Below are positions 41,561 to 54,919 of a stretch of DNA of 64,000 nucleotides, one piece after another. The stretch covers positions 1 through 64,000 of the forward strand of contig JAKPGY010000079.1 in NCBI GenBank assembly GCA_029550685.1. Reading direction: 5' to 3'. The notes beneath the pieces were generated by a model, which saw only the letters and a program-made list of their open reading frames with translations, searched no databases and had not been told where the DNA came from. Source of the stretch: Bacillota bacterium (lineage in GTDB: Bacteria; Bacillota; Syntrophomonadia; Syntrophomonadales; Syntrophomonadaceae). The translations under genes and the position numbers were made by a program. Each line of letters begins with the position of its first letter. Position 1 is the stretch's first letter.

Positions 41561-42010
41561 TTAACGAAGATAGCGAATTCTGCTGGAGCTCAAGACTGGC
41601 TGTTTTATACGGGTTAAGACCATGAATATTAATCCATAGATCAGGGGCATAGCCAGCAAAAGATAATAATAGATCGGATATCCTGCCACTACCCACTGTA
41701 ACAGGGACAGTAACGGTACCACCGGAGTATACCAAAACATAAGCAGGAAAAAAGCATATTCTTTAATTCCCCACCAGGACCAAGGAAGCAAGCTAATTAA
41801 GGAAAAAACAATGCCAGGAGCCTGCCAGATAAGAAATACTTTAATGGCTCTGCATTTTGTTTCTCCACCCAGAGAACGAATCTGCATGGTAATAATCAGC
41901 AAATATAGAACTGCCAGAACTATGTCCAAACCAGGATAATAGGTAGCCAGCCAGACAGCCAGCCAGGCAAAGATATGGATAAAATAAAGCCGCGCTATAG
42001 TTTTCATCAA
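41561..42010 (-). CDS. Hypothetical membrane protein
   Basis: 149 residues with about four hydrophobic spans (starting YFIHIFAWLAVWLATYY, then VLAVLYLLIITM, FSLISLLPWSWWG and YYLLLAMPLIYGLIFMVL). Ends in a basic tail. No recognised family. Its start overlaps the stop of the YiiX-like gene upstream by 4 bases (ATGA-type), so they are probably translated together and act at the membrane as a pair. Function unknown. Confidence 0.7.
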   Translation of the reverse strand: MMKTIARLYFIHIFAWLAVWLATYYPGLDIVLAVLYLLIITMQIRSLGGETKCRAIKVFLIWQAPGIVFSLISLLPWSWWGIKEYAFFLLMFWYTPVVPLLSLLQWVVAGYPIYYYLLLAMPLIYGLIFMVLTRIKQPVLSSSRIRYLR

Positions 42011-42615
42011 ATACTTTTCTCCCGTATCACCTGAACCCAGGGACTGTCATAAAAATCATCCGGGGATATCCAGATATCTCCATTGCTCTCCAAGTTGATA
42101 TCCTGCTGGCGATAAGCTTCCCATACAATCTTGGTACAATTCCAGATCCGTTCCCCAGGCCGAAAAGCCACTGGGTAAAATAATTTTCCCAAATGACTCC
42201 TGGCATAATCTATAGCGGCTTGCTTTTGTGCAGGGGTTGCTTTAACCTTTAGCAAGCAAATCTCGCTGTAAGTCCAGTAGTGTTCCACCGGTTGTTGAGT
42301 AATCCCTAAGTCCACATAGCCTTCTATAACCTGTCCATCACCAATATAAATACCGGCATGGGAGAACCGGCCGTAAGCGCACTCGGGGTATCCTCCCAGT
42401 AATATATCACCTGGTTCCAGGTCTTGCAGATCGATCATATTACCGTAATTTCCCACTGCTCCATAACCAAGCCTTCCCTGCACGGCATTTAACAGATAAG
42501 TATAGGTGAGTGAGTCTCTATTGTTCAGTGTTGCCTGATTCTGAAAATATATGGAAACCAAAATCAATAAGGTCATCACTGGGAAAAACCATAATTGCCA
42601 ATCTCTTTTTCTCAT
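42007..42615 (-). CDS. YiiX/YebB-like permuted NlpC/P60 cysteine hydrolase
   Basis: Secreted or membrane-tethered protein of the permuted papain-like clan. One N-terminal membrane span (LWFFPVMTLLILVSIYF), then GDILLGG and the catalytic histidine motif SHAGIYIGDG (around residue 92), and the catalytic cysteine in WNCTKIVWEAYRQ (around residue 162). 202 residues. Such enzymes hydrolyse amide or ester bonds in the cell envelope; the substrate is not known. Ends in a 4-base overlap with the hypothetical membrane protein. Confidence 0.82.
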   Translation of the reverse strand: MRKRDWQLWFFPVMTLLILVSIYFQNQATLNNRDSLTYTYLLNAVQGRLGYGAVGNYGNMIDLQDLEPGDILLGGYPECAYGRFSHAGIYIGDGQVIEGYVDLGITQQPVEHYWTYSEICLLKVKATPAQKQAAIDYARSHLGKLFYPVAFRPGERIWNCTKIVWEAYRQQDINLESNGDIWISPDDFYDSPWVQVIREKSI

Positions 42616-42642
42616 TTGTCAAAACACCTTCCGAGATGGTCC

Positions 42643-43020
42643 TTGCTATGAAAACGGCTTCCTAATGTGTCATTGCGAGCCCCGTCAGGGGCGTGGCAAT
42701 CTCTATTTAATTTACGCTAACCACAGCTTAGCAGGAGCTTCAGGTTAGGATGCAGGAATATTAGCCAGCTCGCTCCGGGACTCCCCGCCTGCAACACACC
42801 GGCTTATTTCGGTGCGAAGCACACCGCTCGTAATTCGGCATCCATGCACTCAGTACTCGCTGCTCGAATCATCCTGTTTCTCGCTCCGCTTCGCAGCCCT
42901 CAGTTTCGCCGTGGGTGGCAACGGCTCGTCGTACGTCACTCGCCCGGCTAATACTCCTGCTTAACTCGTGCAGAGATATTTTCATTCATCGTGGCCTGTG
43001 TTACAGGTGACAATTGCTTT
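42643..43020 (-). repeat. Repeat element copy D (palindromic core 42752-42960)
   Basis: Reverse-oriented copy. Order: the R2 module (CTATGAAAACGGCTTCCTAATGTGTCATTGC), a REP-like half (GAGCCCCGTCAGGGGCGTGGCAATC), a spacer, the 209-bp core, then GTGGCCTGTGTTACAGGTGACAATTGC. Outer arms GCAGGAATATTAGCC / CGGCTAATACTCCTGC pair; the inner TGCAACACACCGGC / GCCGTGGGTGGCA arm is only partly paired in this copy. Lies in the 745-base gap between the YiiX gene and the 63-residue gene. Confidence 0.82.
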
Positions 43021-43023
43021 GAA

Positions 43024-43195
43024 AACGCTAAACAAACCCGAAGCCTTCTTATGGGTCATTGCGAGCGCGCCAGCGCGTGGCAATCTATAGTCAACTAACG
43101 ATTTGAGTTAACAGATCGCCACGTCGCTTCGCTCCTCGCGATGACACGCATAATCTTTTTCTTCATCTTTGACCTGCACTACAGGTGACAGTCGC
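43024..43195 (-). repeat. REP-like long hairpin and end module
   Basis: GTCATTGCGAGCGCGCCAGCGCGTGGCAATCT at 43055-43087 is answered by AGATCGCCACGTCGCTTCGCTCCTCGCGATGAC at 43112-43144, giving a long imperfect hairpin around a 24-base spacer with TCAACTAACGATTTGAGTTAAC. It is followed by another ACCTGCACTACAGGTGACA end module, as in copies D, E and F. It looks like a repeat copy whose palindromic core is missing. Confidence 0.7.
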
Positions 43196-43360
43196 CAGCC
43201 CTATCCTTGCTTACTGAATTAGTGTCAGTTTTTTAGACTTCTGAACGTATTGTATCATAATCAAACCTATCCTACGAAATCCAGTAATGCTAATATTTTA
43301 TGGGACCAAAAAAGCACCAACCCGGTAAAACTTTATATAATAGTAGGTGAGGTGAAATAT
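43196..43360. other. Leader of the 63-residue gene
   Basis: AT-rich; nothing conserved recognised apart from TATAAT at about 43336-43341, close to the ribosome site, with no convincing -35. An open frame from 43250 runs into the gene but lacks a ribosome site. Confidence 0.4.
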
Positions 43361-43552
43361 ATGTTGACACCGCATGTTTCCAACCTGCTACGGGATGATT
43401 TCCGCCTATTGGCCGATCACCTGGAAGGACAAAAAATTCGACAGGTTATAACTTTCACCGAACACTCAGTGGCGTTATTGCTTGAAAACAACCTGGTAGT
43501 GGTTTTCTCCAACCTGGAAGATGAGTTAGTCGTGGATTTGGAATCATTATAA
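43361..43552 (+). CDS. Small hypothetical protein, 63 residues
   Basis: Starts at an ATG preceded by GGTGAGGTG (7 bases before). Sequence begins MLTPHVSNLLRDDFRLLADH and has a beta-hairpin-like second half (RQVITFTEHSVALLLENNLVVVF), ending in acidic DELVVDLESL. No cysteines, no membrane span; no family recognised. It lies 26 bases before the deacetylase gene and is probably cotranscribed. Function unknown. Confidence 0.65.
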   Translation: MLTPHVSNLLRDDFRLLADHLEGQKIRQVITFTEHSVALLLENNLVVVFSNLEDELVVDLESL

Positions 43553-43578
43553 TAATATTCGTTTAAGGAGATGTATTT

Positions 43579-44502
43579 ATGAAAAAAACGATCTGCCTGC
43601 TTGTACTATTACTGATCGTAATGTCCAGCGGCTGTTTTAACCCCAGCCAGGCAGATTCTGAACCCCATCATAACCTGGCTACTCAAACAACACCAGAGCC
43701 TTCCCCTGATACAGAAGTGCCCTCCGAACCAGCTCCATCTGCTCCCGCAGATGTTACTTCCGATGTCACTCCCGTTGTTAATCCCGGTGACTCGCCTGCC
43801 AGTCAGACAGATACAATACCTGCGGTTTCTAAATCCTGGTATTTTAAACCCAACCAAAATCATGAAACCCCGCAAGTTAACAACGAGATTCAACCACTGG
43901 CCCTGGAAGGTACGGTCTATTATGCCTTGCCACAAAACGCCCCCCAGATCTACTTAACCTTTGATGAAGGATATGAACAGGGTTATACCGGTCAGATTCT
44001 TGATATTCTTAAAGAGCATAATGTTCCGGCAGTTTTCTTTATCACCGGGCATTATCTCAAAAGCCAGCCCGATCTGATTAAACGCATGGTGGCTGAAGGA
44101 CACCAGGTGGCCAATCATACCTATAATCATCCGGACTTATCCAAGGTATCAAAAGAACGCTTTGATAAGGAGCTTGATCAATTGGAACAGGAATTTGAAC
44201 AATTAACCGGTTCCACTATGGCACCTTTTTTGCGTCCGCCTATGGGTAATTACTCCCTTACCACCCTGCAGTGGGCCAAGGAGCGTAATTATAAGACCGT
44301 ATTCTGGAGCATGGCCTTTCACGACTGGGACCCTAATGATCAACCCGGGGCTGACTTCTCTCATCGTTATGTGACTGAGCATATACACCCCGGTGCTATT
44401 ATCCTGCTGCATGCGGTGTCAGAAAGCAACACCCAAGCCCTGCCCCGCATAATCGAAGACCTGCGCGCTGCCGGCTATGTGTTCGCACCGCTGCCGGAAT
44501 AA
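43579..44502 (+). CDS. PdaA-like polysaccharide deacetylase lipoprotein
   Basis: Deacetylase of the carbohydrate esterase 4 family, exported as a lipoprotein (lipobox VMSSGC, cysteine at residue 19). A Pro/Thr/Ser-rich linker runs to about residue 110. The NodB domain starts with IYLTFDEGYEQGYT, which matches the TFDxGYE motif of the spore-cortex enzyme PdaA better than the TFDDGP of chitin deacetylases. Metal-binding HTYNHPDL at about residue 177, then RPPMGNYS and the C-terminal ILLHAVS. Likely substrate: muramic acid in peptidoglycan during sporulation. 307 residues; AAGGAGAT precedes the ATG. Confidence 0.9.
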   Translation: MKKTICLLVLLLIVMSSGCFNPSQADSEPHHNLATQTTPEPSPDTEVPSEPAPSAPADVTSDVTPVVNPGDSPASQTDTIPAVSKSWYFKPNQNHETPQVNNEIQPLALEGTVYYALPQNAPQIYLTFDEGYEQGYTGQILDILKEHNVPAVFFITGHYLKSQPDLIKRMVAEGHQVANHTYNHPDLSKVSKERFDKELDQLEQEFEQLTGSTMAPFLRPPMGNYSLTTLQWAKERNYKTVFWSMAFHDWDPNDQPGADFSHRYVTEHIHPGAIILLHAVSESNTQALPRIIEDLRAAGYVFAPLPE

Positions 44503-44554
44503 ATTATCTTGGTGCAAATATCCTTCGCTGAGTCATCGTCCTAAGCAGAGTGAA

Positions 44555-44573
44555 GGGCTGGGGACACCAGCCC
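44555..44573 (+). terminator. Hairpin after the deacetylase gene
   Basis: GGGCTGG / CCAGCCC around GGACA, 53 bases after the stop. What follows is CCTCCTCATT, so the U-tract is weak; terminator function is likely but not certain. Confidence 0.5.
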
Positions 44574-44599
44574 CTCCTCATTAACTGTACGTGAGTTCC

Positions 44600-44805
44600 T
44601 TCATGCGTCTTTCCGAGGAGCCTCGTCAGGGGCGTGGCAATCCTTATATAGCTCTAGGCTAACCACGGTTTGGCAGGGTGTTAGCCGGGATTTAGGAGTA
44701 TCAGCCGGTAGTACATCACTCGCCCGTCTAATACTCCTGCATGGGCCGTGCAGCCATGTTTTTCACGTGACCTGTACCACAGGTGACAATTGCGGTGTCA
44801 TGGCG
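44600..44805 (-). repeat. Repeat element copy E (core mostly deleted)
   Basis: Reverse-oriented: REP-like half (GAGCCTCGTCAGGGGCGTGGCAATCC), then CTAACCACGGTTTGGCAGGGTGTTAGCCGG, only the outer part of the core (GTACATCACTCGCCCGTCTAATACTCCTGC), then GGCCGTGCAGCCATGTTTTTCACGTGACCTGTACCACAGGTGACAATTGC in pieces. The palindrome middle is lost. Its end lies immediately upstream of the four-gene operon and seems to provide the -35 box of that operon's promoter. Confidence 0.75.
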
Positions 44806-44818
44806 ATTAAGCTACAAT
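44790..44818 (+). promoter_or_regulatory. Candidate promoter of the four-gene operon, overlapping a repeat end
   Basis: TTGCGG, 17 bases, TACAAT. The -10 is 5 of 6, the -35 only 3-4 of 6. The -35 lies in the conserved ACAGGTGACAATTGC end of repeat copy E. Confidence 0.4.
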
Positions 44819-44844
44819 TATTTAAACTAGGTGGGGCTTGGGCT

Positions 44845-45543
44845 ATGAGGAAATTACTGCGCAAACTGGAGTACAACCATTCCTTATCCGAGGAAGAATA
44901 TGAACAGGTAATGGATTATATAGATTGGCTTCGGCAAAACACGCCTGAATCCTATCTTTTGTTCTGCCAGCAGTACGGCGGGATTCTTTATCAACAGTAT
45001 TCTACCTATTTGCCTCCCTATCCCGCAGGCATGGATCAACTGATCGAATACCTGGTACGCAATTCCTGGGCTTATAAAGAGATTGCGGCTCTTCCGGCAA
45101 CGCTCTCCTCTTTTCCGCGCGCTCTGCATCCTTATTTGCTATACATGCTGCACCATGATCCCCGCTCACTGCAGTCAATCAACATTCCGGATGTGGCTGC
45201 TGCAGATGACACCTGTTCCCTGCCTGAACCCAGGAAACAGCCAGCAGTATTAAAATTTGAAGCCGCCAACAGCAATAAGGAACCTGGACTGAAAGCCCAT
45301 TTTGAAAGATTGAGCCGGTTTACCTTTATATCCCGTCTGCAGAGTTACCGTTACCTAACCAAACACAAGGCAGCTCAGGACCGTATTGAAGTGGTGGATG
45401 GGCAGTGTTTGGCAGGTATTTTTACCAATAAAGAGAAATCCATTTACTATTATATTTTTCTCACTGAAGATAATTTGGCCAAGGCCCAATTGGCCTGCCA
45501 GACCCTAAATACTGCATTGTACGGCAGCCGTAAAAGGAGCTGA
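44845..45543 (+). CDS. Unknown protein, first gene of the Hsp70-like operon
   Basis: 232 residues, no family recognised. The N-terminal part is helical and acidic (KLEYNHSLSEEEYEQVMDYI), rich in Tyr (QQYGGILYQQYSTYLPPY). A low-complexity linker (residues about 135-165) leads to a basic domain with FERLSRFTFISRLQSYRYLT and a beta-rich end (KEKSIYYYIFLTEDN). No signal peptide. The upstream in-frame ATG at 44767 lies in the repeat; the ATG at 44845 has GGTGGGGC in front and is preferred. The AAAGGAG ribosome site of the next gene lies at its 3' end. Function unknown. Confidence 0.75.
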   Translation: MRKLLRKLEYNHSLSEEEYEQVMDYIDWLRQNTPESYLLFCQQYGGILYQQYSTYLPPYPAGMDQLIEYLVRNSWAYKEIAALPATLSSFPRALHPYLLYMLHHDPRSLQSINIPDVAAADDTCSLPEPRKQPAVLKFEAANSNKEPGLKAHFERLSRFTFISRLQSYRYLTKHKAAQDRIEVVDGQCLAGIFTNKEKSIYYYIFLTEDNLAKAQLACQTLNTALYGSRKRS

Positions 45544-47006
45544 TTCTCATCGATATCCTAGATTCGTTTCGCCTGGCCCGATCATCTGCCAACCTATTTG
45601 ATTTTTGGCAGCAGGAAGCGGAGCTGCGTATCAAACTGCGGGAGCAGAAGGATATTGACATTGCTACGGTCCAAGATGGCGATGAATTAGATTTTCTTAT
45701 GCGGGCTCTTTATTTTAGCGGCCGCCAGGAAGTATTTTTTTCCCAGTTAAAGACTGCTTTAAACTCTGCTCCAGTTTTGCAGTGGTGGAAATCCAGTCCT
45801 CTATGGCTAAAAAGGGGCTTCTTTTTTTACCTGATTGATAATCTGGATGAGGCGGAGATAGATGGCAGAACCCTACAGTTCCTGATTCACCTCTGGGAAC
45901 CAGATCTGACCAGCGTTTACAGGCAGTTGCTGTCCCGGCTTGATCTTGATCAATGCCGTTATCTTTTAGCTAAAACAGCCAATGGGGAACTGCGTTCCCT
46001 GTTAAAGTCCCGGGAAGAGGAAATCTTATCCACTCAGAAAAACCACCATTATGGCTTGTTATATCACCAGGACCTCCCAGATCTGGCTTTAACCCTTAGA
46101 TCTGAAAAAGCAGAATTGATAAAAGCAGCCCTGTTCCAATTGGAAAAAGTCACCCTTAAGCACCATAGTGAGGCTCATGCACCCCAGCGCTTACGCGCTT
46201 TGCTGGATACGGTTGAACGTGTATACCAGTGTGGGCTTATAATGGATGCTTGGTGTTTGTTAACTCAGATTTACTTGGAATATCAAAACCAGCCAAGCCC
46301 GGCAGAACCCCTGCCGGCTTCTCGTCTGGGCCAGCGCATGAGTCGTCTGGTTGGGAAAACTGTTGGTGCTCTGCTAATACTGAAAGGAGAATTGCGCTTG
46401 ACTGATCAAGCCGCTCAATGGTGCCAACAGTATTTTCCTGCCTTGGAAGTTGACCAGCGCCTGTATCCTATGCTGAGATTATACGAAGCTATTCTGTCAT
46501 CAAGCCAGGCTGCCTCATTGCTCTGGGAGGTTCTCTCCTGCTATGAGGCAGTGCAGCAGTTGTTCCCCGAAGATGGCCTGCCTGAACTGAGATCACTGGA
46601 GTCACAGCCAGGCAGAGGGAAAAAATTACTGGACCTGTGCCATAATCTGCTGCCCTCCTCGCCGGTAGAAGCTTTTATCCTCATGGAGTTGGTCCGCATT
46701 ATGATGGTACACTCTGTTATTCTTTTATCAAAGAAGGATCGTGAACGGCTGCTGCTAGACTATATTGGCCTTTGGAAATGGGTGCCTTGCCGGCGTTTCA
46801 TTAATAATGACATAGTGAATCAACTGGCTCATGGGGTACAACCACCGGTACGGCAGGAAGCTGAACGTATCTTAAACTGGTCCCAGCCGGGAATGCCGGA
46901 AGATCTGCTGGCTGACTTACAGAAACGTCCTGATATCTACCGGAGCGGAACTGACCCTATACGTAATCTAGCTTTATTAGGATATTTATGGGGGGTGCTG
47001 GAGTGA
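45543..47006 (+). CDS. Unknown helical protein, second gene of the Hsp70-like operon
   Basis: About 487 residues and almost entirely alpha-helical, with many LLxxLE-type repeats that suggest a helical-repeat scaffold. No family recognised. The frame opens with no ATG, GTG or TTG until 45699, but the 50 codons before that are clearly coding (SFRLARSSANLFDFWQQEAE and following), and AAAGGAG lies at 45533-45539. The start must then be non-standard: ATT 45543, CTC 45546 or ATC 45549 are in range; the coordinate given is the earliest. It overlaps the stop of gene 1 and ends in a GTGA overlap with gene 3. Confidence 0.72.
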   Translation: MLIDILDSFRLARSSANLFDFWQQEAELRIKLREQKDIDIATVQDGDELDFLMRALYFSGRQEVFFSQLKTALNSAPVLQWWKSSPLWLKRGFFFYLIDNLDEAEIDGRTLQFLIHLWEPDLTSVYRQLLSRLDLDQCRYLLAKTANGELRSLLKSREEEILSTQKNHHYGLLYHQDLPDLALTLRSEKAELIKAALFQLEKVTLKHHSEAHAPQRLRALLDTVERVYQCGLIMDAWCLLTQIYLEYQNQPSPAEPLPASRLGQRMSRLVGKTVGALLILKGELRLTDQAAQWCQQYFPALEVDQRLYPMLRLYEAILSSSQAASLLWEVLSCYEAVQQLFPEDGLPELRSLESQPGRGKKLLDLCHNLLPSSPVEAFILMELVRIMMVHSVILLSKKDRERLLLDYIGLWKWVPCRRFINNDIVNQLAHGVQPPVRQEAERILNWSQPGMPEDLLADLQKRPDIYRSGTDPIRNLALLGYLWGVLE

Positions 47007-48586
47007 CACTTACCGAACAGCAGTTGAGCATGGTTATTAATCAACAGCTAAATAACATATTAGGTGAACTTAACCAATCAGTAACCCAGTTTGTCAACCG
47101 GGAAAAGGCTAGGCTGCAATCCTGTGACGACCAGTACCTGCTGGCGGTAAACCGTTTCTACTATCAGACTTTCAGCGATCATTTTTTTCCGGTTTTCCGC
47201 CAATCCCTTCAGGAGGATATTGCTCGTCTGCTCAACCTGGCCCATGATGAAGCTTCCCTCAGTCGTGACATATTAGTTACCATACAGCGTTATGCTCGCA
47301 TGTATAACCAAGTGAAGAGCATCCATACCAAGCTGATGGCGACCCGGGAGGAAAGCCAGCTAAAAATCTTGGAGGTTACCCGCCAGCGCAGCCAGCACCT
47401 GTCTGACTTGTTATATCCCCTTAAAACCCTCCTGGACCGGATAGAGCTATTTCAAAGTTTGCTGGAAACTATTGAGGAGTTTATGCAGGATGAAGAGTTG
47501 CTGCGCTTGGCTAAAATTTACCCGGATCATATTATTTTGCTGGAACAGGTTATTGCCCTGGATCTCAGTCATCCTTCCGTTATCCAGGGCTTTAATAACC
47601 TGCTATCTCACCTGCACCACAGTTGTAACACCCTCAAAACTCTAGCGGAGAATCCTTGGAATCAAGAGGATGCCAGGCATATTATTGTGCAGATGGTAGC
47701 AATTACGGAAAAGGTCTTAAACCGGCAGGCCCCTCCATCACTGCTGGCTTTTTATGAAGCCCAGTTTAAGCGTCAGTATCTAATGTACACTTCCCTGATG
47801 GAAGCTGGTATTGACCGCAATCAGACCAAACAGGTCCGGGAAATGGCCAGACAGTTTCAAGCCTGGCTGGAACGGCTGGTGGTGGTATTGGATCGAGGGG
47901 TTCGCTTTGCCAGCCGGCATGGAACCGAATTGCTGCATAGTGCCCATTACATGACCGGTATTTCCTCTACTCAAATCGACCGTCTTCTTAGAGAAGTTCG
48001 GGATATCCGGCAGGATATACATGAGCTGGTCACCGATTTATCAGCCAGTCAGAATGTTGATACCGCTTATTTTCTGGATCGTTCTGGTGAAACCGTAAGG
48101 AAAGCTTTGACGCGGTTGGAACCCTATAAGAGTTCTCCGGCCTTAAGGCTGCCTCCATTAGCGTTTCACATAGAAAGAGTCTTTCTGGAACTTTCTTTTT
48201 TGACCGCCCGTATTGAAATGCTGACTGATAAACATACCCATTCCAGCCAGATTTTAGATCAGCACTTACAGGTATACAATATGATTCAGTCCTACCTGGA
48301 CTTGTTGGTAAATATCAGGGTTGACCTGGAACGCGTTTTAGCTCCTCGTAATATCAGCAGGGTTTGGAAGAACCATGAAGTACGTACCGAGAGAATATCT
48401 CTGGAGAAGGGACATCCCTTTCCGGATGAATATAGCTTTTTGTTAAACCAGTATAATGTGGAAACCCGTTTGGGAGATTATGAATACCCGGTGGTCTTGT
48501 ATGAAGAAGGGGACCTGTTTGTAATCCGGGTTGATCAAAAGGTGGAATATGAACTGCCCGTATTAGTTATTGGCAGGAGAGAGTAA
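47003..48586 (+). CDS. Unknown coiled-coil-rich protein, third gene of the Hsp70-like operon
   Basis: 527 residues, helical throughout with long amphipathic stretches (TRQRSQHLSDLLYPLKTLLD, VREMARQFQAWLERLVVVLD) until a short beta-rich end (NVETRLGDYEYPVVLYEEGD). GTG start at 47003 overlaps the previous stop (GTGA); an ATG at 46988 is also possible. No transmembrane span, no catalytic motif, no family recognised. The layout suits a structural partner or co-chaperone-like subunit for the ATPase encoded 2 bases downstream; this is inference from operon context. Confidence 0.75.
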   Translation: MTLTEQQLSMVINQQLNNILGELNQSVTQFVNREKARLQSCDDQYLLAVNRFYYQTFSDHFFPVFRQSLQEDIARLLNLAHDEASLSRDILVTIQRYARMYNQVKSIHTKLMATREESQLKILEVTRQRSQHLSDLLYPLKTLLDRIELFQSLLETIEEFMQDEELLRLAKIYPDHIILLEQVIALDLSHPSVIQGFNNLLSHLHHSCNTLKTLAENPWNQEDARHIIVQMVAITEKVLNRQAPPSLLAFYEAQFKRQYLMYTSLMEAGIDRNQTKQVREMARQFQAWLERLVVVLDRGVRFASRHGTELLHSAHYMTGISSTQIDRLLREVRDIRQDIHELVTDLSASQNVDTAYFLDRSGETVRKALTRLEPYKSSPALRLPPLAFHIERVFLELSFLTARIEMLTDKHTHSSQILDQHLQVYNMIQSYLDLLVNIRVDLERVLAPRNISRVWKNHEVRTERISLEKGHPFPDEYSFLLNQYNVETRLGDYEYPVVLYEEGDLFVIRVDQKVEYELPVLVIGRRE

Positions 48587-48588
48587 CT

Positions 48589-49848
48589 ATGCTAGTGGGT
48601 ATTGATTTGGGTCCGAAAACCACCAAAATTGCTTACCGGCAGGAGGGAAAGTGGCACTACCACAACGTAGCGCCTTTCCTATATGAAGCAGATGACAGCA
48701 ACACTGATGAGGAAAAAGTTCTGACCAGCTACCTGATTGGTCTGAGTCGGGAAATTGATTTCAACTCTTTGCTATCAGCGGTAATATCTTATCCAAACTA
48801 TTGGAATCTGTCCCGCCGGCGCACACTCTATAAGGCATGTCAAGCCGCCTTTTCAGACCGGATATTTTCTCTTTTACCGGAACCGGTTGCAGCCTTAATG
48901 GGTCATGAATCGACTCGGAGTTTATGCGGAGATATTTTGATTGTGGAACTTCATGAAAACATGGCTTCTTTCAGCTTGTTGACTGTGATTCAGGCTGGCC
49001 AGGATATATGCCTGGAAATACAACTACCTCTGGCATACCACCAGCCGGTGGAGCCAGCCCTGCAAGATTTCATCATTAACCATTTGCAGCCCCGGGCCAA
49101 ACAGCTGGGATTTTTTGAAGCAGGCAGCTGGAGGCTGAAGGCAGTGGTATTAGTGGGCGAAGAGACCTTACTTCACCAGGCAGCTTCCCTGGTAAATAGC
49201 ATTTTCACCCCCCGGGAACTAATAATTCCTGTTCAAGCTGATTTTCAAATTGCCCGGGGACTGGCGGAATGGGCAGCTGGTGGGGAACATTGCCGTGTAA
49301 AAGCCATCTATCCTTTCGAATTTGTTCAGGAAACCTTTAGCCTTGACTCAGCCGATCATCAGTTTGAGCCTCTGCCTTTTGACACAAACAATCTGGCTAT
49401 GGATCTGAAAGCACGCTACCTGATTACTACCTTGACCACCGGATCGCTTTTTAACTTATCGACTGGAAACCATACTCTTCACTACCGGTTATGGGAAAGA
49501 CCTGGCGGTCAGACGCAGGATAACAGCGGGGATAGGCACAACCACCTGATCTGGGAGTTTGAGGACCCAAATGCATATATTGCCGAACCGTTGGGAGTTT
49601 ATTTGCATATGGGAGAGTTTGCTATAGAATCAGATACTATAGGGCAGACGAGTATGAATAAGCCGGCTCCTTACGATCTAAATAGTGATTATCTTAAACT
49701 CGCCCAGCGCCTGCTTGCCATCCCCTTTCTCAATGAAGAACTCAAAAGAGACTTACAGGAACTGGCTAGCCAGCTAGAAGGATATGATTTAACTAATCAG
49801 TTGGAATTGACACGCCTGCGGCTGCTGGCATTTTTACAGCTATATTAA
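48589..49848 (+). CDS. Divergent Hsp70/actin-fold (ASKHA) ATPase
   Basis: 419 residues. The N-terminal LVGIDLGPKTTKIAY matches the phosphate-1 loop of Hsp70/actin ATPases (DLGxxxTK), and SAVISYPNYWNLSRRRTLYKACQAAF with LPEPVAALMGHE resembles the Hsp70 subdomain IIB entry and its connecting helix. The second phosphate loop (VIVELHENMASFSL) and adenosine site (VVLVGEETLLHQ) are weakened: the usual DxGGxT and GG pairs are absent. The last 150 residues replace the DnaK substrate-binding domain. It could bind nucleotide with little hydrolysis. Function unknown; it is the last gene of the operon, followed by degenerate tandem repeats. Confidence 0.75.
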   Translation: MLVGIDLGPKTTKIAYRQEGKWHYHNVAPFLYEADDSNTDEEKVLTSYLIGLSREIDFNSLLSAVISYPNYWNLSRRRTLYKACQAAFSDRIFSLLPEPVAALMGHESTRSLCGDILIVELHENMASFSLLTVIQAGQDICLEIQLPLAYHQPVEPALQDFIINHLQPRAKQLGFFEAGSWRLKAVVLVGEETLLHQAASLVNSIFTPRELIIPVQADFQIARGLAEWAAGGEHCRVKAIYPFEFVQETFSLDSADHQFEPLPFDTNNLAMDLKARYLITTLTTGSLFNLSTGNHTLHYRLWERPGGQTQDNSGDRHNHLIWEFEDPNAYIAEPLGVYLHMGEFAIESDTIGQTSMNKPAPYDLNSDYLKLAQRLLAIPFLNEELKRDLQELASQLEGYDLTNQLELTRLRLLAFLQLY

Positions 49849-49852
49849 TCTT

Positions 49853-50012
49853 GGCTGTGAAAATGGCTTCCTATTGTGTCTTTGCTGTGCAAACAGCCCT
49901 CTCTGTGTCATCGCAGTGAAAATAGCTCTTGCAATGTCATAGTGGTCTCTACTCAAGTGTCATTGCTGTGAAAATAGCTTCCTAATGTGTCATTGCTGAG
50001 AAAACGTTCTAG
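49853..50012 (-). repeat. Degenerate tandem repeat of about 30 bp
   Basis: Five or six units of the form GCTGTGAAAATAGCTTCCTA + ATGTGTCATT, for instance starting at 49855, 49885, 49914 and 49966. The same unit occurs singly at 42643 and, reversed, at 4267-4297. This is the R2 module of the repeat family, multiplied here. Confidence 0.7.
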
Positions 50013-50027
50013 CGATGGACAGACCCG

Positions 50028-50392
50028 AAGCCTTCTTATGTGTCATTGCGAGCCCCGTCAGGGGCGTGGCAATCTCTATTAAATTTACGCTAACCACAGC
50101 TTAGCAGGAGCGTCAGATTAGGATGCAGGAGTTTAGCCGGCTCGCTCCGGGACTCCTCACCTGCAACCCACCGGCTTACTTCGGTGCGAAGCGGACCGCT
50201 TAAGAATTCAGCATCCATACTCTCAGTCCTCGCTGCTCGAAACATCCTGTTTCCAGCGACCCTTCGCAGCCCTCAGTTTCGCCGTGGGTTGCAACGGCTC
50301 GTCGTGCGTCGCTCGCCCGGCTAATACTCCTGCTTAAGCCGTGCTCGATGTTTTCCTCCATCGTGAATTGTTATAAAGGTGACAATAGTGAT
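50028..50392 (-). repeat. Repeat element copy F (palindromic core 50125-50333)
   Basis: Reverse-oriented, near complete. REP-like half GTCATTGCGAGCCCC / GGGGCGTGGCAAT, spacer, then a 209-bp core with arms GCAGGAGTTTAGCCGG / CCGGCTAATACTCCTGC and TGCAACCCACCGG / CCGTGGGTTGCA, then GAAACATCCTGTTTC in the centre. End module GTTATAAAGGTGACAAT. Together with copy E it brackets the four-gene operon in the same orientation. Confidence 0.83.
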
Positions 50393-50427
50393 ACCTGTTA
50401 TACTAAATAGTGAAAGGAGAACCTAAC

Positions 50428-51237
50428 ATGCCTCAAGTTACTTTTGCGCTGCATCCGGCAGCATCAAAACACATAATCGCTCAGGCTGTCTGCCGTCTTC
50501 CCCAAGTGCACGAAGCCTTTACCCATGGTAAAATAATTATAGGCAGCGGGACCACTAACCTGCTGGTAGCAGAAGAGCTGCTGCAGACCAGATTCGAACC
50601 CTACGAACCCTATGTAGCCGGTGTCATAACCCAGCGTTCTGCCTGTGCCACCGAAACCAGCCAGCGCAAAGGTGCATGGTGTATAGAAAAAGGCCGGCTG
50701 GTAGACGAACCTTGGATAGATTTCTTAAACCGGTTCGAACCCGGGGATATTTTTATAAAGGGCGCCAATGCCATTGATCCCTTCGGCAATGCGGCTATCC
50801 TGCTGGGAGATGCCCAGGGAGGAACCATAGGCCAGGCTATCGGAGTTGTGAAGGCGCGGGGTATCGAGTTAATAGTACCGGTAGGATTGGAAAAGCTGAT
50901 ACCCTCATGCCTGGCTGGAGAATCCAAGATGGGGCATTACCGGAGCTCGATGCGTCTGGGAATGAACCTGGGTTATATGGTAGTAACCGGTGCCAATATT
51001 GTTAGCGAAGTAGAAAGTTTCAAGATCTTGTTTAATGTGGAGGCTGTCCCCGTAGCAGCTGGTGGAGTAGGGGGAATGGAAGGAGCGGTGATGCTGGCAG
51101 CAGAATGTCCAGATGAAAAAACCGCTGAACAGATCATAGATTTGGCCCGTAGAGCCAACCAGCAGCCCCCCATTAAAGTTAAGCGCAAAAAATGCTCCCA
51201 ATGTGATAATCCTTGCCAGATATTAGAGAAAGTCTAG
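50428..51237 (+). CDS. Unknown protein with C-terminal cysteine cluster
   Basis: 269 residues. Features: a GSGTTNLLVAEELL loop near residue 42, a glycine-rich ANAIDPFGNAAILLGDAQGG, and VAAGGVGGMEGAVMLAAE near the C-terminus, all suggesting an alpha/beta fold with a nucleotide or CoA pocket. The end (KRKKCSQCDNPCQIL) has a CxxCxxxC cluster that could bind metal. I do not recognise the family. AAAGGAG 9 bases before the ATG. Next to, and probably cotranscribed with, the class IV aminotransferase (18-base gap). Confidence 0.72.
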   Translation: MPQVTFALHPAASKHIIAQAVCRLPQVHEAFTHGKIIIGSGTTNLLVAEELLQTRFEPYEPYVAGVITQRSACATETSQRKGAWCIEKGRLVDEPWIDFLNRFEPGDIFIKGANAIDPFGNAAILLGDAQGGTIGQAIGVVKARGIELIVPVGLEKLIPSCLAGESKMGHYRSSMRLGMNLGYMVVTGANIVSEVESFKILFNVEAVPVAAGGVGGMEGAVMLAAECPDEKTAEQIIDLARRANQQPPIKVKRKKCSQCDNPCQILEKV

Positions 51238-51255
51238 CAAAAGGAGGCAATAAAT

Positions 51256-52086
51256 ATGGAAACAAGCACCGAAAAGTTCTGGCTTAAGAATGACCAATTT
51301 TTTAGCAAGGATGAATTACCCGGCGACTTTATCGAGCAAGGTATTTCCCTATACGAAGTTTTCAGGGTAATACAGGGAGTGCCTCTATTTTTTGAGGAGC
51401 ATATGGCCAGACTTCATAATTCCTCGCAATTAACCGGATTAAAATTGCCTGTAGAAGATGAAACCATTAGAAAAAGGCTTCATGATTTAATTGCACGTAA
51501 CCAGGTGGAGACTGGCAATATTAAAATTGTACTGAATTACCAGCAGCCCAATGAACCCGCTGTTTTTTATGCCTACTTTACCCCGGCTTTTTACCCTTCC
51601 CCAGCTGATTATGAAAAGGGAGCTAAAACGGTTTTAGTCCACATTGAAAGGCCTAATCCCAATGCCAAGGTAGACCGGGCAGAATATCGCCAGGTTATTG
51701 ATACCGCCAAGGAAAAAACTAATTCCTATGAAGCAATACTGGTGGATCACAATGGATATGTAACCGAAGGCGGGAGATCTAATGTATTTATGATCAAAGA
51801 CAACCTGGTTTTGACTCCTCCGGCAGACCAGGTATTAAAGGGCATTAACCGGCAGGTGGTGTTGACAGCCTGTGACAACATAGGCCAGTCAGTGATGGAA
51901 AAGAAAATCAGTCTGAATGAAATGCTGGATATGGATGCTGTGTTTCTCACCGGTACCTCACCACACGTGTTGCCAGTAAGTCAGGTGGATGATTACCTCT
52001 TTGATTCCGCCAACAACCAAATCCTCAGGAACATTATGACCGAGTTTAACAATATCGTAGAAAATTATATTAAAACCCATCGCTAG
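51256..52086 (+). CDS. Class IV PLP-dependent aminotransferase-fold enzyme
   Basis: 276 residues of the IlvE/DAAT/PabC family. Shows SLYEVFRVIQGVPLFFEEHMARL near the start, KTNSYEAILVDHNGYVTEGGRSNVF in two stretches with the likely PLP lysine in the KEKTNSY segment (around residue 156), and FLTGTSPHVLPV at the end. Could be a branched-chain or D-amino-acid aminotransferase or aminodeoxychorismate lyase; the sequence does not decide. AAAAGGAGG precedes the ATG. A perfect hairpin follows the gene. Confidence 0.87.
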   Translation: METSTEKFWLKNDQFFSKDELPGDFIEQGISLYEVFRVIQGVPLFFEEHMARLHNSSQLTGLKLPVEDETIRKRLHDLIARNQVETGNIKIVLNYQQPNEPAVFYAYFTPAFYPSPADYEKGAKTVLVHIERPNPNAKVDRAEYRQVIDTAKEKTNSYEAILVDHNGYVTEGGRSNVFMIKDNLVLTPPADQVLKGINRQVVLTACDNIGQSVMEKKISLNEMLDMDAVFLTGTSPHVLPVSQVDDYLFDSANNQILRNIMTEFNNIVENYIKTHR

Positions 52087-52100
52087 AATAGTGAAAAGAT

Positions 52101-52139
52101 CAGTGCAGAGGCTGTCCTAAAAGGACAGCCTCTGCACTG
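52101..52139 (+). terminator. Perfect long hairpin after the aminotransferase gene
   Basis: CAGTGCAGAGGCTGTCC / GGACAGCCTCTGCACTG, 17 perfect base pairs around TAAAA, 15 bases after the stop. No U-run follows, so it may end transcription poorly or act as RNA stabiliser, but its position fits a terminator. Confidence 0.6.
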
Positions 52140-52157
52140 TCGATATAGGTTATGAAA

Positions 52158-52312
52158 GAGATAGCCGCTTCGCACCGAAGTAAGCCGGTGTGTTGCAGGC
52201 GAAGAGTTCTGGAGCAAGCCGGCTAATACCTCTGCATCCTGGCTAACACCCTGCCAAGCCGTGGTTAGCCTGGAGCCACATAGAGATTGCCAGTCCCTAC
52301 GAGTGCTCTCAT
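52158..52312 (+). repeat. Repeat element copy G (right half only)
   Basis: Forward-oriented right half of the core and flank: CCGCTTCGCACCGAAGTAAG, CCGGTGTGTTGCAGG, GCCGGCTAATACCTCTGC, TGGCTAACACCCTGCC, then CCACATAGAGATTGCC. The left half is absent, so it cannot form the long palindrome. Lies between the aminotransferase and the convergent grdCD gene. Confidence 0.75.
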
Positions 52313-52366
52313 TATTAATTCATCCCGCCTGTTACCTAAACAAAGTTATCTCATGATGACGAATGT

Positions 52367-54919
52367 CTATTGGTTACTTCTGTTTAACAGCCGGCAGGCC
52401 TTTTCGTAATCACTGCTGTTCACCATAATTACCGGGCCGGTGCATCCCATACCGGAACTAGCAAAAATGCCTTCTTTCCAGAGTACTTTAATGGCCTCAT
52501 CCAATTCCAAAATGTCAATGCCGTGGATTTCACAATCAACTGTTTTCGCTGGCGGGCAGACTATTTCCGTTTCCTGGGTGCTAGTATCAGCTTCCCGGCT
52601 GACAATCCAACCACACTTTTTAGCCTGATCAATTTCCTTTTTGACCTGTTCTTGCCATTTATTTTTGACCAGGTTGGCACAATAGCTTATTGCCGCGCTA
52701 ATTACCGGTGCGCCAGAAGCTCGGGAAATGATACAGATAAGCCGGTTGAAATCTTCACCAATGCCAGGTCCATAACCGTAGCCAATTGTCTCATACAAGC
52801 CTCCGCTGTTAAAAGAACTGAAGAGCTTCATGAGAACATTACCGGTAAGGGAATCAGTAACACATACGTCGACACTGCCGGTGATTAAATCATTGCCTCT
52901 TAACACTGGTCCGCCATCTTGGCGAAGTGAGCTTCCCCAGGTAAATTGATAACCGGCTGATTGCATCTGTTGCAGGTGCCTTTCTACCTGCCGCGCTCCT
53001 TCAACATTCAAAATCCCGACAGTAGGATTAGTTTTACCTTCAGTTCGGGCCACGGCTAAACCGAAAACAGCATTTTTTACCATAGCCTGAACCCGGTTGG
53101 TATCTGCTGTACCAGTGGTTGAAGCAATGTACATTTCTTTACCCTGGGCTGGGGTTATAACTTTCCCGATAGTAGTTACCCCAATAGGAAATGGATAATG
53201 CATGGTTACCAGACCATCGATTATACCGCTCTGCAGCAACTGCTCACTGGTTTGCCGGATAGCTTCTTCACTATCGGCAGCATAAACAGTGAACTCCCTG
53301 CTATCACACTGGCCAATTATAACTACGTTCAAGTCTGGATTAGCTTGTACCGCCTGCCGGGCACCTGACAGCATATCTTGGACATCAATCTCCCCGCCAC
53401 CGATGGTTAAACCTATGGTAATACCCTTCTTTTCCGGTTTCACATCCTGCTGAGCTACTGTTACCCGGTTTTCCAGCTCACCCGGATTTTTTTCAATTAC
53501 TATACTGATGCCGTCGAACAAGTCCGTCATGCGTCCTAAGAACAGGCTCCCTTTACCAATAATCATAGCCCGCTTTATCTGATTTTGCTGGATGCTGTGG
53601 ACAATATGACCTATGGCTGGTATACCTGAAGGAATGTGTCCCTGAGTAGGAGCGAAGCCAATTATGCCATGTTTATGACAAAAGTCCAGGAGCTGTTGCT
53701 TTTCCAATTCGCCCCGTTTAACCGCCATGGCACCTATCATTTTATAATTGGCTAAAGGCACATCACCTGCCCCAGCCGGCATGGTGATTTCGGGGTTCTG
53801 CAGTTCCGGTGCATACAGGTCTATATCGGTAATCCGCAAGTTGTTCTTGATCAACGGATCAACCACTATAGCCTGAATGACTGCCTGGGGTGCAGAACCG
53901 GAGCCAATTTTATGTCTGCCGATAATATCAGTCCTTAGAACCGGGCTATTACCATCATTTTTACTGATAAGCACAGCAAAGCTGCCCAGCATATCTTCTA
54001 AAACCGGAGAGCCTTTGGCGATATGATCTTTGCTGTTCATGCCCAATTTGGCTGTCGAACCGCCGCCAATTAGGACCACATTATTAAATATACCGGATTG
54101 TACTAAAGAAGCAGCATTTACTAAACCATGAACAGGGCCCGCACAAAAACCCCGTAAATCAACACCGGTGGCATTTACCAGCCCGGCAGCCTCTCCTACA
54201 GCTTTGGCTAAATTGCCGCCTCCCCGCTGATTCATATCTCCAATAGCTTCTTCGGAGGTTTCGATAATGTAATCGATATCAGCTGGGTCAATTTTATGAA
54301 TGGCTAACAGGTTCTTCAGGGCTAAAACAGCTGAGGCTTTATTGACCAAATTCTCCATTACCACATGGGCTTTTAAATTAGGGTCATACTCGTGAGCCTC
54401 CCGCACACAACCAACCAGTTTCCCCTGTTGGTAGAGTCCCTCTGCCAGACCGGACTCCACCAACTTCTCAATATCCTCAAAGACGGTTCCTTGGTCCAGC
54501 AGGGTTAATTCACTGGCTGAAAAGATGGTCTGCGCCTCTAGTTTTTTCTTCTGCTCCCATGAGAATTGTTCTTCCAATTCCACCAAATTGAAGCGGTCTA
54601 CCAGTTTCAGCAGAGCATAAAGCTCACCCTGATCTACAATCTGCCCATATTTTCCCTGAGAACTAGCGGTGATCTCCTGTTGAAACCAGGGCTGGGGCAG
54701 TTCCCGTAATTGTTCCGGGCTTAAGTTGCCAATATATACCTGATTAGGTGGATACTTCACCGCGTCGGCATAGGAACGCAGGCATTGCGGCAAAGTTTTC
54801 AGAAACTGCGAATCTGGGTTGGTTATCCTTTCCATGGCCGGTGTGGTACCTTGCCAGTACAGTATATCGGGAGCATGTACCAACACATAAGCTGCAGCTT
54901 TTATTACCGGAAATTCCAT
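52367..54919 (-). CDS. grdCD: Glycine reductase component C, fused GrdC-GrdD
   Basis: Protein C releases acetyl phosphate from the acetyl group carried over from protein A. It is usually two proteins, GrdC (about 510 residues, thiolase/KAS-like) and GrdD (about 385, plsX-like). Here one 850-residue frame covers both: up to about residue 490 it is GrdC, with RGFCAGPVHGLVNAA around residue 260, and from about residue 500 (GITIGLTIGGGEIDV) it is GrdD. The acyl-carrying cysteine of GrdD is C826 in GMGCTGPV. No internal stop or ribosome site is visible at the junction, so the fusion is genuine. Last gene of the grd operon. Confidence 0.92.
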   Translation of the reverse strand: MEFPVIKAAAYVLVHAPDILYWQGTTPAMERITNPDSQFLKTLPQCLRSYADAVKYPPNQVYIGNLSPEQLRELPQPWFQQEITASSQGKYGQIVDQGELYALLKLVDRFNLVELEEQFSWEQKKKLEAQTIFSASELTLLDQGTVFEDIEKLVESGLAEGLYQQGKLVGCVREAHEYDPNLKAHVVMENLVNKASAVLALKNLLAIHKIDPADIDYIIETSEEAIGDMNQRGGGNLAKAVGEAAGLVNATGVDLRGFCAGPVHGLVNAASLVQSGIFNNVVLIGGGSTAKLGMNSKDHIAKGSPVLEDMLGSFAVLISKNDGNSPVLRTDIIGRHKIGSGSAPQAVIQAIVVDPLIKNNLRITDIDLYAPELQNPEITMPAGAGDVPLANYKMIGAMAVKRGELEKQQLLDFCHKHGIIGFAPTQGHIPSGIPAIGHIVHSIQQNQIKRAMIIGKGSLFLGRMTDLFDGISIVIEKNPGELENRVTVAQQDVKPEKKGITIGLTIGGGEIDVQDMLSGARQAVQANPDLNVVIIGQCDSREFTVYAADSEEAIRQTSEQLLQSGIIDGLVTMHYPFPIGVTTIGKVITPAQGKEMYIASTTGTADTNRVQAMVKNAVFGLAVARTEGKTNPTVGILNVEGARQVERHLQQMQSAGYQFTWGSSLRQDGGPVLRGNDLITGSVDVCVTDSLTGNVLMKLFSSFNSGGLYETIGYGYGPGIGEDFNRLICIISRASGAPVISAAISYCANLVKNKWQEQVKKEIDQAKKCGWIVSREADTSTQETEIVCPPAKTVDCEIHGIDILELDEAIKVLWKEGIFASSGMGCTGPVIMVNSSDYEKACRLLNRSNQ

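Follow-up and report, generated by a model that had tools for sequence, protein, structure and literature searches.

What is an Hsp70-like gene kept for once the parts of it that hold ATP have gone, and what do the three conserved genes beside it do? The question is raised by an operon within the 64,000 nucleotides analysed here (the window; contig JAKPGY010000079.1), which come from a 2.93 Mb draft genome of the Syntrophomonadaceae and in which four intact, co-directional open reading frames (ORFs), here called genes 1 to 4 (g1-g4), lie head to tail on the forward strand at 44845-49848. Our answer, which we think stands an even chance of being right, is that they encode an undescribed, lineage-specific Hsp70-type protein-binding complex that would act as an ATP-independent scaffold in the window's genus. 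What is new is an Hsp70-type system with three partners of no known family and with repeated loss of its ATPase. An earlier note on this DNA had offered a specialised chaperone, a scaffold or a defence module; chaperone or scaffold is our best reading too, and the defence module finds no backing in either a credible PADLOC match or a mobile context.

Operon structure and inheritance

The tight packing described in that note is present as claimed, with a GTGA overlap at the g2/g3 junction (47003-47006) and a 2-base gap between g3 and g4, and the block recurs in 46 genomes, where neighbouring genes are as a rule separated by -4, -1 or a few bases. Within its class the four-gene set is all-or-none: across 63 sampled genomes, g1 was found in 48 and g3 in 49, with both in 46, neither in 12 and only one in 5, most of these last matches lying at contig ends. 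Gene order and strand are identical in 20 of 20 large loci (L041-L060, with g2 split in L058 and L060), the chromosomal neighbours of these loci are mostly the same, and g1 is single copy wherever present. A family of the same order (f2) has g1 and g3 in none of 5 genomes, and in a phylum sample of 399 genomes g1 is restricted to families f1 and f3, as is g3 save for two marginal matches (E ~7e-4 and ~9e-4). We take f3 to be Syntrophothermaceae. The set is thus private to Syntrophomonadaceae and Syntrophothermaceae, families of syntrophic fatty-acid oxidisers. Thirty relatives of g3 in named genomes, S. wolfei subsp. methylbutyratica among them, are labelled Syntrophomonas or Syntrophomonadaceae except for one Gelria and one 'Firmicutes' metagenome-assembled genome. 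A search for g1 in 72,556 plasmid and 50,697 phage records did not find it, and operon and window do not differ in GC content (0.468 and 0.474). The operon is core, vertically inherited and lineage-restricted.

Ratios of non-synonymous to synonymous substitution (dN/dS) between the window and its nearest relative (L041) are 0.14, 0.17, 0.10 and 0.26 for g1 to g4, and g1 is the best conserved of the aligned members (mean column identity 51%, against 37-42% for g3 and g4). In three genomes the matched stretch of g1 holds a stop codon (TAG in G038, TAA in G020, TGA in G040); near-full-length ORFs are still called in these cases (L154, L176, G040:C184:20975-21664), and the stop probably lies at the edge of the match. 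Judging from its alignment, g2 probably uses a rare start codon, ATC, which follows a good ribosome-binding sequence (AAAAGGAG) and stands where relatives L042 and L043 have ATG or GTG; because ATC is common to the window and L041 genomes, it is no simple sequencing error. In both, ATT and CTG lie just upstream of it (45540-45551 in the window), and the first ATG of the window's g2 is at 45699.

Published peptides of Swol_0384 (PMC9676460) occur in the gene at L046:3349-5220. Counting by gene order from there, the operon of S. wolfei would be Swol_0386 (g4) to Swol_0389 (g1), with the ATP motifs of its g4 intact. A literature search found mention of only Swol_0383 and Swol_0384 in that range, and none of Swol_0386-0389.

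Hsp70 ancestry of gene 4

The product of g4 had been described as an ASKHA-fold ATPase with weakened nucleotide motifs, and its DLGxxxTK loop is indeed present and its GG adenosine motif absent. Taken alone, the window's g4 has no match in Pfam. Most orthologues are 550-585 residues long with intact ATP motifs (Table 1), and these intact relatives match the HSP70 model of Pfam (E 2e-16, above the gathering score) and the DnaK models of NCBIfam (E 5e-18). Profile comparison of the g4 family with DnaK gives an hhalign probability of 99 (E 9e-18), over an alignment that spans the phosphate-1 loop to IYPFxFYIE, which falls opposite DnaK's TPLSLGIE. The linker region there reads xIKxIYPFxFYIE, and of TPLSLGIE only P and IE stay in place; the best NCBIfam score is 65 bits against a DnaK cut-off of 648, and the curated DnaK and HscA cut-offs are met by no g4 relative. 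By these profiles, the nucleotide domain of g4 is of Hsp70 ancestry, and the protein is a very divergent Hsp70.

The C-terminal half was examined on a structure model of a relative (L075), for which g3 and g4 were folded in one job by artificial read-through of the stop between them. The model has a mean predicted local distance difference test (pLDDT) score of 82 and a predicted template modelling (pTM) score of 0.52, and the relative placement of g3 and g4 was therefore left uninterpreted. In it the ASKHA domain of g4 is followed by 8-9 beta strands and 3-4 helices that superpose on the Hsp70 substrate-binding domain. Top Foldseek matches in the PDB are Hsp70s. The lid-truncated two-domain Hsp70s 6eof and 6zmd (~520 residues) align at E 1e-20 to 1e-19 over 533-540 columns, essentially their whole length, with a root mean square deviation of ~5.2-5.3 A and a template modelling (TM) score of 0.67-0.68 by target length, while 3qml, a nucleotide-binding domain (NBD) alone, reaches TM 0.77 over 377 residues; this comparison indicates that the C-terminal domain of g4 adds to the Hsp70 match. 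The list also includes Ssz1 of the ribosome-associated complex (RAC; 6sr6). On the strength of the model, the g4 family probably has a substrate-binding beta domain and a short lid, so the earlier statement that a DnaK substrate-binding domain is absent is probably wrong at the level of the family.

Apparent loss of the ATP machinery

In the window, g4 is without residues equivalent to 43-78 of the L075 protein, a segment containing FFKLELKR that we take, from the alignment, as the site of DnaK's catalytic lysine, and to 204-295, which make up subdomain IIB. Its phosphate-2 motif and adenosine GG are lost as well (Table 1). The degenerate state is found in 4 of 4 genomes of the window's genus and also on other branches; among 32 scored loci, 18 are intact (phosphate-2 being intact in most of these) and 14 degenerate. 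A tree of g1-g3 calls for a minimum of six changes between the two states, three of them forced by well-supported branches, and the genus's nearest relatives on that tree (L050, L051) are both intact. We infer loss rather than gain because the intact state is common to DnaK and family f3. With a dN/dS of 0.26 that is similar in both halves of the protein (NBD remnant 0.26, beta domain 0.27), g4 is under purifying selection and is not decaying. As far as sequence can tell, then, the g4 of this genus is a pseudo-Hsp70 that has lost the parts that hold ATP and whose gene is kept by selection.

Families and folds of genes 1 to 3

None of the first three products had been recognised by the earlier reader, and searches of Pfam, NCBIfam, PHROGs and PDB sequences placed none of them credibly in a family. 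The description of g1 as tyrosine-rich is apt (8.2% tyrosine). In a model of g1 and g2, obtained by read-through in another relative (L079; pLDDT 82), g1 starts with helices and ends in a domain built of four to five strands and two helices, and g2 forms a solenoid made up entirely of helices; Foldseek matches to the model are mostly TPR and solenoid proteins, weak (best E 4e-3) and with g1 swamped. In the model of g3, helices of 88 and 63 residues lead into a C-terminal beta domain, in which the 63-residue helix is followed by beta structure, a short helix and five more strands, with motifs in the order KGxPFPxxY ... EEGDIFxIxVD ... PxLVV. The models thus support an alpha/beta domain for g1, a putatively TPR-like solenoid for g2 and, for g3, a long coiled coil capped by a beta domain. 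DnaJ Pfam models, searched at E up to 1, have no match in g1-g3 or their relatives. Ordinary grpE and dnaK genes lie elsewhere in the window's genome, and the operon is therefore an additional system. The four genes are conserved together, with order kept in all large loci, and we found no known system that holds all four.

Proposed function and alternatives

We propose that the four products form one complex in which g1-g3 are dedicated partners of g4, with g2 serving as adaptor, g3 providing an extended coiled-coil surface and g1 the most constrained functional surface, and that the beta domain of g4 would bind a partner or client. In lineages with intact motifs ATP may regulate g4, which would cycle and clamp the client or partner. 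In the window's genus g4 would instead stay bound through the beta domain as a constitutive, ATP-independent scaffold comparable to Ssz1; since the ATP cleft is gone there, its binding would have to be constitutive.

Several points weigh against this proposal. The physical interaction of the four products is something we infer, and the modelled protein is the L075 read-through of g3 and g4 rather than the shortened g4 of the window. Compared as a profile with the DnaK substrate-binding domain, the C-terminal domain of g4 alone gives no significant match, and for this reason we base the assignment of that domain on the structure model. No canonical Hsp70 interdomain linker (LLLDV) can be recognised in g4, which makes DnaK-like allostery doubtful even in the intact members. 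A J-domain protein or GrpE-type exchange factor is not recognisable in the operon. One genome (G026, locus L067, G026:C372) has g1-g3, and a tblastn search of it with a same-genus g4 did not find g4.

In one alternative, which we consider unlikely, the set is a dedicated Hsp70 machine driven by ATP, with g3 as a GrpE-like nucleotide exchange factor and g1 and g2 as client adaptors, the window's version having decayed with residual function. The order of secondary structure and of motifs in the C-terminus of g3 reads like the GrpE wing and makes the assignment attractive by eye; profile comparison with GrpE gives no signal (hhalign probability 0.2%, with shuffles scoring equal or better in 41 of 100), and Pfam PF01025 (GrpE) has no match in g3. 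GrpE binds DnaK at subdomain IIB. It is this subdomain that g4 has lost in the very genus in which g3 is strongly conserved (dN/dS 0.10), so exchange is unlikely to be the main role of g3 there.

Two further readings seem to us improbable. One takes g4 as an actin-like filament or membrane-division component of the MreB, ParM or FtsA type, in which case the operon would build a structure of the cytoskeleton or the envelope and g3 would be its coiled-coil crosslinker. Intact relatives of g4 do have a weaker MreB match (Pfam E 4e-10) and a match to a PHROGs partition protein (1.6e-8); in both Pfam and NCBIfam, however, HSP70 models outscore those of MreB, the top structural matches are Hsp70s, and actins are without the Hsp70-type C-terminal beta domain. 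The upstream neighbours are cell-wall enzymes (polysaccharide deacetylase, NlpC/P60), but they adjoin the operon in some genomes and not in all.

The other would have the set specialise in assembling the abundant beta-oxidation or electron-transfer complexes of syntrophic fatty-acid oxidisers, and is no easier to credit. Restriction to fatty-acid-oxidising families speaks for it, as does the S. wolfei locus, which has as neighbours an acyl-CoA dehydrogenase (Swol_0384) and an acetate transporter of the YaaH type (by gene order, Swol_0383), although adjacency alone is weak. Operon-free genera also have many acyl-CoA dehydrogenases, the operon-free family f2 having 15-25. Beta-oxidation was likewise rejected as the defining trait, operon presence not tracking acyl-CoA dehydrogenase number. 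A link to sporulation, for which the earlier note had suggested looking, is not supported either: nearly all relatives have SpoIVA, whether or not they carry the operon.

An anti-phage or other conflict module is very improbable: helical proteins of no known family beside a nucleotide-motif protein would suit one, and g1 weakly matches the C-terminal end of the CARF7 effector profile of PADLOC (best E 3e-4, 10 of 27 members), but PADLOC has no match for g2, g3 or g4, no nuclease or other effector is recognisable, g1 was not found in phage or plasmid records, and the set is single copy, vertically inherited at one conserved chromosomal locus and without mobile context.

Returning to the Hsp70-type complex, a bolder form of the proposal, which we advance tentatively and hold to be somewhat doubtful, is that it adds another type to the prokaryotic Hsp70s DnaK, HscA and HscC, one with three new-family partners and a repeated change from clamp to ATP-free scaffold in which the complex was kept. 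Were this so, it would offer a natural series showing what work an Hsp70 complex does without its motor. Hsp70s are thought to depend on ATP to open and close. In this operon, orthologous Hsp70-like proteins that have kept or lost the ATP machinery occur in closely related genera with the same three partners, which makes the role of the motor open to comparison, and the culturable Syntrophomonas wolfei carries an ATP-intact version. The four proteins are also conserved and lineage-defining in the bacteria behind syntrophic fatty-acid oxidation, which limits methane formation.

Feature coordinates and neighbouring elements

Table 1. Positions in the window of the operon genes, their predicted domains and motif remnants, and the nearby repeats
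Feature	Position	Strand	Description	Basis
g1	44845..45543	+	232 aa; N-terminal part helical, C-terminal alpha/beta domain strongly conserved	ORF, alignment, model
g1 conserved C-terminal alpha/beta domain	45241..45522	+	NPYKExGLKxHF...RLQSYRYL...GIFTNKEKSIYYYIFLTE	alignment and model secondary structure
g2	45549..47006	+	~485 aa; all-helical, putatively TPR-like solenoid; probable ATC start, aligned with relatives' ATG/GTG	
g3	47003..48586	+	527 aa; very long helices (coiled coil) and small C-terminal beta domain	
g3 C-terminal beta domain	48380..48583	+	VRTERISLEKGHPFPDEY...EEGDLFVIRVD...ELPVLVIG	
g4	48589..49848	+	419 aa; putative pseudo-Hsp70: degenerate NBD and Hsp70-type C-terminal domain	
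g4 phosphate-1 loop remnant	48601..48627	+	IDLGPKTTK; intact relatives IDFGTSYTK	
g4 phosphate-2 remnant	48943..48975	+	VELHENMASFS; intact relatives DIGGGTxDFS	
g4 adenosine-motif remnant	49147..49164	+	VLVGEE; intact relatives LLLGGxS	
g4 substrate-binding-domain-beta-like region	49306..49710	+	starts IYPFEF; dN/dS 0.27	profile, model, dN/dS
g4 short helical C-terminus (rudimentary lid)	49711..49845	+		structure model and dN/dS
Dispersed repeat, direct copies	42639-43017, 44618-44793, 50019-50389			
Dispersed repeat, inverted copy	52165-52297			

A repeat of roughly 350 bases has three direct copies and one inverted copy within 10 kb. Copies flanking the operon in the same orientation, as had been reported, do exist; the draft genome has nine occurrences of the 18-base core of the repeat, and we therefore regard the copies as dispersed repeats and not as a component of the operon. 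A 275-residue protein without a Pfam or NCBIfam match is encoded at 50410-51237. We rejected it as a fifth operon gene: several relatives have it next to g4 (in L041 the two overlap), but it is also found elsewhere in genomes and in other families. On the reverse strand, 52367-54919 holds an 850-residue ORF with DUF5940, FA_synthesis and ACP_syn_III domains, which may fuse both component C subunits of a reductase of the glycine/betaine type. An Rfam search of 42000-52500 returned nothing.

Comparison with known systems

Three types of prokaryotic Hsp70 have been named, DnaK, HscA and HscC (PMC8215388). With these g4 shares the fold of the NBD, the order of its motifs and, in the model, a C-terminal beta domain leading into helices, and HscA and HscC set a precedent for specialised paralogues with deletions in the NBD. 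It differs from them in its very low identity, in having no recognisable LLLDV linker, in its three unrelated partner proteins without a recognisable J-domain or GrpE partner in the operon, and in the loss of its NBD motifs within the window's genus. In NCBIfam, one intact relative matches the YegD-type chaperone of E. coli (NF008673 / PRK11678) best (2e-15), far under the curated cut-off (57 against 331 bits), and we know of no such partners of YegD as g1-g3. The HSP70h of closteroviruses, which is used in virion assembly, is likewise a divergent Hsp70 with an NBD and a beta domain and is among the structural matches to the g4 model; it is viral, and its relation to g4 is seen at the level of the Hsp70 superfamily only. 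AtcJABC of Shewanella is, like ours, a lineage-specific four-gene operon of unknown proteins tied to Hsp70 machinery (PMC6715715). Unlike ours, it has a J-domain protein, works through DnaK and encodes smaller proteins (atcA 540 bp, atcB 759 bp; PMC6715715).

Ssz1 is eukaryotic, ribosome-bound and has a J-protein as partner, and it still binds ATP, whereas elements of the cleft have been lost from the window's g4. It does not hydrolyse ATP, its function is independent of ATP binding, and its substrate-binding domain is what holds it in RAC (PMC10191838). As a non-canonical Hsp70 with a reduced substrate-binding domain, without a lid or a conserved linker, that forms a stable complex through that domain (PMC10191838), it resembles what we propose for g4.

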